From Gammaproteobacteria bacterium (GTDB lineage: Bacteria; Pseudomonadota; Gammaproteobacteria; SZUA-229), in contig JAOUNI010000020.1 in the NCBI GenBank assembly GCA_029881035.1, positions 1 through 44,026 on the forward strand: DNA of 44,026 nt. Reading direction: 5' to 3'. The notes below the pieces were generated by a model, which made no database searches, was not told the DNA's origin, and saw only the letters and a list, made by a program, of their open reading frames with translations. Positions 4,519-22,212 of the stretch are shown here, piece by piece; the stretch's first letter is position 1; each line of letters opens with the position of its first letter. Made by a program: the position numbers and the translations under genes.

Positions 4519-4852
4519 TGACAGGGTACTGCCTTTTTTGGCTGCTGTGTTAATGAAGAGCTATCCTAATATTAAAGTAACTAATAGTATCATTTGTACC
4601 ATATAGACAGAGCAATAACATTATGACTTAAATATTTTATGACACATACTTTTGCATATTTATTTTATGAGGCGAACGTATAATTATCTTGAAATTGAAA
4701 AATAGATCAGGGCCAATAGAAAAATGTTATCGAGAAATATAATACATACAGATTTTTAAATTTAAATGACAGCCTATAAATTGTATTTATGGTGACAAAT
4801 ATTTAAAAAAGGTGATGAAATTCAACTGAAAATAGTAATGTTTAATCAAAAT

Positions 4853-4887
4853 TTTAATTAAATCACTTTTTTTAATTAAATCACTTT
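4853..4887. repeat. Perfect tandem duplication of a 17-mer, 18-bp period
   Basis: TTTAATTAAATCACTTT occurs at 4853-4869 and again at 4871-4887, separated by one T. Each unit contains the palindrome TTAATTAA. The repeat lies about 60 bp upstream of the gene relic. It may be replication slippage in AT-rich DNA or a pair of protein sites. Confidence 0.75.
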
Positions 4888-4949
4888 AATAATTGATCTA
4901 AATAAGTATTTCAAGAAAAGATATAGATATCAGCAGGATACAATCACAT

Positions 4950-5106
4950 GAGGGCCGGGAAATTTATTTCCATCGAAACAGTCTGGTTGATGGTTATTTT
5001 GACGGCCTGGAGAATGGTGATAAAATGAACTCTTTAGAAATAGCAGGTATTGATAGTCACAGCCAGCACTGTGCACTTAATCGGTAAACATAATATTGTC
5101 GGCTGA
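4950..5106 (+). pseudogene. Decayed 3' fragment of the HPF/cold-shock-domain gene
   Basis: This stretch aligns base for base with 21587-21745, the end of the intact HPF/cold-shock gene. By eye, 55 of 65 bases match from 4964, and 43 of 46 match at the end, including GTGCACTTAAT and ATATTGTCGGCTGA. The middle is more diverged, and a net 2-base deletion shifts the frame. In the parental frame it reads IYFHRNSLVDGYFDGLENGDK, close to the intact IYFHRNSLVDGDFDGLEEGDK, then loses the frame and stops early. The ribosome-binding half and the start of the cold-shock domain are absent. It therefore looks like a duplicated or recombined remnant and not an expressed gene. Confidence 0.85.
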
Positions 5107-5124
5107 CAATAAGTTAAGTAACGT

Positions 5125-5153
5125 GGTGGCCTGCTAATTATTAGCAGGCCACC
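5125..5153 (+). other. Perfect 13-bp inverted repeat (hairpin) without a U-tract
   Basis: GGTGGCCTGCTAA (5125-5137) pairs fully with TTAGCAGGCCACC (5141-5153) across a TTA loop. It follows the gene relic by about 20 bases and ends 20 bases before the ATG of the DUF4382 gene. No T-run follows, so it is not a standard intrinsic terminator on the plus strand. It may be a relic terminator, a leader hairpin or an operator. Confidence 0.7.
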
Positions 5154-5173
5154 ATGAAAATGAGGCTAAAGTG

Positions 5174-6091
5174 ATGAAATTATCGATAACTAAAACATTC
5201 AAAATAATGGTAATGACCAGCCTGACGTTATTTCAGTTCGGCTGCAATTCGGGCAGCTCATCACCAACAGGTTCATTAACTATCAATGTGACTGATGCAC
5301 CCATTGATACAGCCGAAAAGGTTATTATTGAATTCAGTGGCATTGAAATAAAACCGCAAAATGGAACGTCGATTAGCTTTGACTTCACTGAAAAGTGTAC
5401 GTCTGACCCGGATTTATGTCAGATTGATTTGTTAGCACTCAATAATGGCCTTTCTCAGCAGTTACTGGATTCTGAGATCGTCTCTTCCGGACAGTACAAC
5501 TGGCTTCGATTAATGGTTAATGCTGAAGCGAATGTTAAAGATTCTTATATTGTTATCGCTGGAAAGGAATATGAGTTACATATACCAAGCGGCGCACAAA
5601 GTGGGCTTAAATTAAATCAGGGTTTTGTAGTTCCAGCAGGGGGTGAAGCAAACTTCACCATTGATTTTGATTTGCGTAAATCAGTGCATGATCCTGTAGG
5701 TATGAGCGGTTATATACTTCGACCTTCGCTGCGAATGATGAATAACGTTGAAACAGGAACATTATCAGGCAGTATCGATGCCAGCTTTTATTCAAGCGGC
5801 AGCTGCAACGGCGCAGTTTATGTTTTTGATGGCAGCGTCGATACGCCCGATGATGAAGATGGTGAAGGCTATGGACCTGACCCGATCACTTCGGCATTGG
5901 TCAACGACGATGGTGTATATAATTACAAAGTGAGCTTTCTTACCGAAGGTAATTACCTTATCGCGTTTACCTGTGATGCTCTAGCTGATAATCCTGATTT
6001 AGATGATGATACAGCTACAGTTAGTTTCCTGAGTACCGCAACCGTCACTATTAACGCAAATAACAATACAGTTTATAACTTCGAACCTTAA
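5174..6091 (+). CDS. DUF4382 exported (probable lipoprotein) beta-sandwich protein
   Basis: The protein is about 305 aa. A GTG at 5171 is in frame, but the ATG at 5174 is better spaced from GAGG at 5162-5165. An N-terminal hydrophobic segment ends FQFGCNSGSS, an imperfect lipobox because the -3 position is Gln and not Leu. The first domain carries the DUF4382 signature: GSLTINVTDAPID, then IEFSGIEIKP, and LRPSLRM at its end. A second, carboxypeptidase-regulatory-like beta domain follows, with DGSVDTPDDEDGEGYGP and NYLIAFTCD. The molecular role of DUF4382 proteins is not established. The location should be the periplasm or the outer-membrane face. A clear terminator follows. Confidence 0.85.
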   Translation: MKLSITKTFKIMVMTSLTLFQFGCNSGSSSPTGSLTINVTDAPIDTAEKVIIEFSGIEIKPQNGTSISFDFTEKCTSDPDLCQIDLLALNNGLSQQLLDSEIVSSGQYNWLRLMVNAEANVKDSYIVIAGKEYELHIPSGAQSGLKLNQGFVVPAGGEANFTIDFDLRKSVHDPVGMSGYILRPSLRMMNNVETGTLSGSIDASFYSSGSCNGAVYVFDGSVDTPDDEDGEGYGPDPITSALVNDDGVYNYKVSFLTEGNYLIAFTCDALADNPDLDDDTATVSFLSTATVTINANNNTVYNFEP

Positions 6092-20739: not shown

Positions 20740-21178
20740 TGAATGTACCCCTACAATTTCTGTTGTAAAAAATAACAGAAATAAACCAGCTATCCGAACA
20801 GTATAAGCATTATCAAGCTTGTGGAAATTAATTTATAACATTCAATCATCAAGAGTATCCAGCTACTTATTAAATAATCTTATTAGTTCTGCTTGTAGCC
20901 GTTATTAAAACCGGCACCACATTAAAGCCGATAAAAATAATTTATAGACAATTATCAACAAGACGGCTTCAGCTCATTTTTTGAAATTATTCAGAATGAC
21001 GATCTATTACCAGAACATTTGAATAAGTACAGAAAAACTATTGTTTACATACCCTGATAATTAGCTGCATTTATAATGGCAACATCACATAAATTAGTGA
21101 TCTAAGAGAATACTTCGAAAAATAATATAGGTATGATATAGATGTGGTTCAATATTATTAGTAATGGAGGTTTGATTA
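20740..21178. promoter_or_regulatory. 439-bp divergent intergenic region, ACP-ligase fusion versus HPF/cold-shock operon
   Basis: No gene is seen. An inverted repeat TTTCTGTT (20757-20764) / AACAGAAA (20774-20781) lies 18 bases upstream of the fusion gene start on its strand. On the other side a perfect -10-like TATAAT occurs at 21072-21077, without a good -35. A strong GGAGG site at 21167 precedes the HPF/cold-shock start. The remainder is AT-rich and featureless. Confidence 0.45.
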
Positions 21179-21745
21179 ATGAAACAGCCTTTGCAAGTTA
21201 ATTTTCGAGACATCCCACCCTCTGAGTTTATAGAAGCCAATATCCGTGAAAAAGCCGCCAAGCTAGATGAGTTCTATGATCACATCATGGCCTGTAAGGT
21301 AATGGTAGAGGCTCCTCATACCCACCACCATAAAGGTGTTCTATACCACGTTAGAATTGATCTGACCGTGCCGAACGGTGAGATTGTTATCAATCGTGCC
21401 CCCAAAGATCATCATGCGCATGAGGATGTTTATGTAGCCATCCGTGATGCCTTTAATGCAGCTCGCAGAAAATTGCAGGACTTTTCCCGTAAACAGCGGG
21501 GTGATATCAAACATCACGAAACTCCACCGCACGGTGTTGTCACCGAACTGGTTCCTTATGAGGATTTTGGCAGGATACTGACTTCAGACGGCAGAGACAT
21601 TTATTTCCATCGCAACAGTCTGGTTGATGGCGATTTTGACGGCCTTGAAGAAGGTGACAAAGTTAGATTTTCGGAAGTCGCAGGCGATGAAGGCCCGCAG
21701 GCCAGCACTGTGCACTTAATTGGTAAACACAATATTGTCGGCTGA
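21179..21745 (+). CDS. HPF/RaiA-family ribosome-associated protein fused to a cold-shock domain
   Basis: The 188-aa cytoplasmic protein has an N-terminal HPF/RaiA-type ribosome-hibernation domain (about 1-105: QVNFRDIPPSEFIEANIREK, then EDVYVAIRDAFNAARRKLQD). It is followed by a cold-shock nucleic-acid-binding domain (about 120-182) with DFGRILTSDGRDIYFHRNSL and GDKVRFSEV. Such fusions are thought to bind the small ribosomal subunit under stress, and the cold-shock half would add RNA affinity. A consensus GGAGG precedes the ATG. It is followed after 17 bases by a CBS protein gene with its own strong ribosome binding site. A decayed copy of its 3' end lies at 4950-5106. Confidence 0.93.
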   Translation: MKQPLQVNFRDIPPSEFIEANIREKAAKLDEFYDHIMACKVMVEAPHTHHHKGVLYHVRIDLTVPNGEIVINRAPKDHHAHEDVYVAIRDAFNAARRKLQDFSRKQRGDIKHHETPPHGVVTELVPYEDFGRILTSDGRDIYFHRNSLVDGDFDGLEEGDKVRFSEVAGDEGPQASTVHLIGKHNIVG

Positions 21746-21762
21746 TAAAGGAGGAAAAGCTC

Positions 21763-22212
21763 ATGACAGCAGGGGAGTATTGTAATCGTGAAGTGGTCAT
21801 CACGGATCGTGACACATCTATTGCACAGGCCGCTATACTGATGCGAGAACACCATGTTGGTAGTCTGGTGGTGGTGAAAAAACGAGATGGTGCAAATGTA
21901 CCGATTGGGATTGTCACCGATCGTGATCTGGTCATTGAAGTCATCGCACTTAAAGTACCCATTAATTCTGTCATCGTCGGCGATATTATGAGCACTGATC
22001 TAGTTACAGTTGAGGAGCAGGAGACGCTGATTAACACACTGGATCTCATGCTGAAAAAAGGCGTTCGCCGTATTCCTGTTGTTGATAAGCAGAAAAATCT
22101 TCAGGGTATTCTGACGGCAGATGATGCTATTGATCTGCTGGCCGAGTCGATGAGTGATCTTACGAAAATAATCAACAAGGAGCTGATGTATGAAATAAAG
22201 CAGCGACCTTAG
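21763..22212 (+). CDS. CBS-pair domain protein
   Basis: The 149-aa cytoplasmic protein consists of two tandem CBS motifs (about 8-65 and 73-130: DTSIAQAAILMREHHVGSLV, then IGIVTDRDLV; GDIMSTDLVTVEE, then RRIPVVDKQ and GILTADDAIDLL). CBS pairs bind adenine nucleotides and usually sense energy state. AAAGGAGGAAA precedes the ATG. Co-transcription with the HPF/cold-shock gene suggests that it relays energy status to ribosome hibernation or RNA metabolism, which is inference. No catalytic domain is attached. Confidence 0.92.
   Translation: MTAGEYCNREVVITDRDTSIAQAAILMREHHVGSLVVVKKRDGANVPIGIVTDRDLVIEVIALKVPINSVIVGDIMSTDLVTVEEQETLINTLDLMLKKGVRRIPVVDKQKNLQGILTADDAIDLLAESMSDLTKIINKELMYEIKQRP

Follow-up and report, generated by a model that had tools for sequence, protein, structure and literature searches.

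A probable duplicated, internally deleted and frame-shifted HPFcold-type pseudogene in a gammaproteobacterial genome

Near one end of 44,026 nucleotides from a gammaproteobacterium (contig JAOUNI010000020.1, positions 1-44,026, the whole of which is called the window here), a short stretch of DNA resembles the 3' end of an intact gene for an HPF/cold-shock protein located about 16 kb downstream. This raises the questions of what the stretch is, how it arose, and whether it still has a function. A sequence-only reading had taken it for the relic of a duplicated HPF/cold-shock gene, and this is supported by a match far above chance. We consider it likely, with a probability of roughly 0.85, that the stretch is a duplicated, internally deleted, frame-shifted HPFcold-type pseudogene that now makes no protein. 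The features of the relic and of the intact locus are:

4825-4879, + strand: possible outer promoter-region remnant, found only in a composite alignment, to 21029-21083; AT-rich and weak alone
4880-4930, + strand: leader remnant, 37/51 identical to 21084-21134 without gaps
4926-4934, + strand: deletion junction, where the leader and coding matches overlap
4926-5057, + strand: remnant of codons 129-172 (cold-shock domain), frame still open, no start codon
5058-5060, + strand: site of a frame-shifting net loss of 2 bases; the shifted frame stops at TAA 5085-5087
5061-5106, + strand: remnant of the final 46 bases including the old stop codon, 43/46 identical
21084-21134, + strand: matching leader of the intact gene, counterpart of 4880-4930
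21179-21745, + strand: intact HPFcold-type gene, S30AE and cold-shock domains, 188 aa, assigned by Pfam and PDB matches
21763-22212, + strand: CBS-domain gene 3' of the intact copy, without a counterpart after the relic

The intact protein contains an N-terminal S30AE/sigma-54 modulation domain (PF02482, E 4.3e-13) and a C-terminal cold-shock domain (PF00313, E 4.1e-10), both exceeding the cut-off, and it matches PDB 9t0z chain 9 over residues 1-178 (E 1.4e-38). The HPFcold class is named for CBU_0020 of Coxiella burnetii, a hibernation factor reported to bind to the 30S decoding site and, through its cold-shock domain, to the anti-Shine-Dalgarno sequence (PMC13392368). Judged by domain order and sequence, the product of 21179-21745 is a member of this class, having both domains of CBU_0020 (PDB 9t0z) in the identical order, whereas the relic retains the cold-shock part alone and yields no protein. 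One genome of the family (G024) carries two intact, diverged HPFcold genes (L010 and L032), 79% and 66% identical to that of the window; functional paralogues therefore exist in the family.

Window positions 4926-5109 were 78-84% identical to 21563-21748, the 3' end of the intact gene. A BLAST search of 4900-5160 against its own genome returned the intact gene (21570-21748, 78% identity, E 1e-33) and otherwise solely the query itself and a self-complementary hairpin. The identity between this region and the intact gene was far from random, with a local alignment score of 165 as compared with a maximum of 28 among 500 dinucleotide shuffles. Over 4926-5057 the alignment was gap-free and codon-for-codon (95/132 identical), the relic translating as DISRIQSHEGREIYFHRNSLVDGYFDGLENGDKMNSLEIAGIDS where the intact protein reads DFGRILTSDGRDIYFHRNSLVDGDFDGLEEGDKVRFSEVAGDEG, and the match passed the stop codon by 3 bases, reaching 5109. 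The 157-base recurrence described earlier (4950-5106, against the 159 bases of 21587-21745) was confirmed together with its net 2-base deletion, which lies near 5057-5062, as were the three differences in the final 46 bases (5061-5106). The similarity over 4950-5106 was real; the start proposed for it was wrong, since the coding match begins at about 4926 and a leader match lies further 5'.

This leader match immediately precedes the coding match, in the same orientation and in the order of the intact gene. All of 200 dinucleotide shuffles scored lower, and among 143 further AT-rich stretches of 55 bases taken from the window the best scored 14, as compared with 23 for the leader match. Homologous genes in two relatives (G001 and G006) have leaders that likewise matched the relic leader above all of 300 shuffles; those of most other relatives gave a weak match or none. 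A profile of the relatives' leaders detected the intact leader (E 2e-4) and missed the relic leader, for which the evidence is pairwise. Furthermore, a composite sequence joining the leader of the intact gene to its 3' end aligned to about 4825-5109 in one piece. From these alignments the relic extends over 4880-5109, possibly 4825-5109. Absent from it are 21135-21562 (approximately 428 bp), which comprise the leader end, the ribosome-binding site, the start codon and codons 1-128. The view that the stretch duplicates just the final 157 bases of the gene was thus right about its being a relic of a duplicated gene and incomplete as to its extent; because part of the leader is present besides the 3' end, an internally deleted copy fits better.

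Two observations concern the leader regions. An 18-base sequence, TTTTAATTAAATCACTTT, is present in two copies in perfect tandem at 4852-4887, just 5' of the relic leader. The HPFcold leaders of four loci in the family (L005, L006, L007 and L068) have in common a motif, TTAAT/TTGAT-N4-ATCAA, approximately 80-100 bases before the start, which resembles an FNR/Anr box and would suggest oxygen control of HPFcold in the family; the motif is degenerate in the leader of the window's own gene.

The relic makes no protein. Its homology to the intact gene is accompanied by lesions, namely the loss of the start codon and the first 128 codons and a frameshift near 5058, and no usable in-frame start was found: the only ATG-led frames of at least 20 codons on the + strand were one of 26 codons, which does not lie in the old frame, and one of 20 codons, which belongs to the frame-shifted end. 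No convincing HPF-domain match, and hence no S30AE domain, was found 5' of 4926, and none was found elsewhere in the genome apart from the intact gene. Two of the frames of 4560-4935 were empty of HPF-domain matches. In the third, 4581-4652 scored beyond every shuffle and was judged to be a chance match, because it aligned to the cold-shock part, lies in the wrong place and contains a stop. The differences between relic and intact gene fell on the three codon positions as 11/6/20, as compared with about 5/4/22 between functional homologues; on these few sites, positions 1 and 2 together account for 17 of 37 differences in the relic and about 9 of the 31 that separate functional genes, which is the direction expected without coding constraint. 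In the tree of the 3' ends the branch of the relic measured 0.36 and that of the intact copy 0.06.

These results are consistent with a course of events in which an HPFcold-type gene was copied with its promoter region, in the same orientation, to a site about 16 kb upstream, with a histone-deacetylase-like gene on one side and a DUF4382 gene on the other; the direction of copying is suggested by synteny. Comparison with the intact copy shows that the duplicate has since been shortened, probably in a single deletion, by about 428 bp between the leader and codon 128, among them ribosome-binding site, start codon and HPF domain, and that it subsequently lost a net 2 bases close to the end. Bacterial pseudogenes derived from decayed gene duplicates are a known category, and the relic shares with them the lost start, the large internal deletion, the frameshift, the occurrence in a single genome and possibly, from the few sites here, relaxed constraint. 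It differs from them in clustered divergence, suggestive of possible conversion tracts, and is otherwise not unusual. Literature searches on the subject of pseudogenes returned nothing specific to such a relic.

As to the origin of the copy, the intact gene has the same neighbours in two relatives (G006 and G008) as in the window (acyl-CoA synthetase-like, HPFcold, CBS and YfaZ), and in part in a third (G002). Because this neighbourhood is common to relatives, the 21-kb site is taken to be the old locus and the relic the derived copy. The histone-deacetylase-like and DUF4382 genes of relatives lie on separate contigs or apart from each other, with no relic-like piece found at these loci. Among 54 family genomes the relic was present in this one only; many of the other 53 are incomplete, and absence from them is no proof. 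A DNA search of 40 relatives likewise returned intact genes and no relic. The copy was earlier thought to be recent, which is doubtful: of 132 sites, 9 show the base of most relatives in the relic and a different one in the intact copy, and the copy therefore probably predates some of the changes in the intact gene. It had also been proposed that an incoming paralogue was lost here, and it is conceivable, if unlikely, that the relic is the remnant of an HPFcold gene gained horizontally from a related species. The relic reads GRIQS..GRE, as do several relatives, where the intact copy reads GRILT..GRD, and in trees of the 3' end (about 180 bases) a sister relation of relic and intact copy was weakly supported, the best tree lacking it being better by 2 log units. 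However, the resident gene was the closest sequence to the relic in both parts (95/132 and 43/46, against 92/132 and 37/46 for the next best), and the resident leader was the best match to the relic leader, with that of G001 close behind. Moreover, no phage record with the gene was found, plasmid homologues were less than 60% identical, and nothing close to a source for the relic was present in the phage or plasmid records. Duplication of the resident gene is accordingly favoured over an incoming paralogue.

The better preservation of the 3' end than of the middle, noted in the sequence-only reading, is real. The relic differs from the intact gene at 3 of 45 sites in 4964-5008 and 3 of 46 in 5061-5106, and the two remaining stretches have 14 differences in 38 sites and 20 in 49; that is, 7% of sites differ in the two patches and 37-41% in the remainder. 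The clustering had a permutation p of 0.002-0.005, with a window size picked after seeing the data, and functional homologues showed no such contrast, differing on average by 18-26% in all four stretches. Because the differences are clustered, plain drift alone is inadequate. One explanation would be that the 3' end or the whole relic has been retained as a regulatory RNA, as a decoy for a binder of the intact gene's mRNA or as a decoy promoter region, for which the two patches and the partly preserved leader could be cited. This is very improbable, and the earlier suggestion of a retained RNA-level role is unsupported: folding of the relic was no better than that of shuffles (z -0.14; -1.0 and -0.3 for the two 3' ends), an Rfam search of the relic gave no match, no copy was found in any relative, and gene conversion can produce the same patches. 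Still less credible is the specific form in which the patches are under selection and a relic transcript, mimicking the 3' end of the HPFcold mRNA, tunes that mRNA as a decoy; if true, the RNA of a bacterial pseudogene would be acting on the gene from which it derives, and nothing here supports it. Short gene-conversion tracts from the intact copy, or chance, explain the patches better. Little weight was given as well to the idea that the DUF4382 gene at 5171 now uses the relic as its promoter or as a spacer. The relic is directly 5' of that gene and contains, on the same strand, a sigma-70-like site at 4999-5026 with 10 of 12 consensus bases and a TG before the second hexamer, but promoter-like sites number 6 as compared with 4.1 in shuffles, and the homologous DUF4382 genes of two relatives (G003 and G006) manage without the relic.

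There is no good sign of present function, and the relic appears to be an ordinary dead gene duplicate of a single genome. Its value is mainly for annotation, as its recognition keeps the fragment from being taken for a gene or an RNA element. It also provides an example of a bacterial duplicate between duplication and total loss, with its leader still recognisable and with possible conversion tracts.

Between the relic and the DUF4382 gene, just 5' of the start of the latter, a perfect hairpin was observed at 5122-5156, with a stem of about 16 bp and a loop of 3 bases (-29.6 kcal/mol, z -7.2); it lacks a T run. That it belongs to the duplicate or to a repeat family was considered and rejected, the intact copy having no such hairpin and the genome no close second copy. 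A tiny open reading frame, ATGAAAATGAGGCTAAAGTGA (MKMRLK), at 5153-5176 overlaps, in the sequence TGATG, the ATG that may start the DUF4382 gene, and could be a coupled leader peptide or a chance occurrence.
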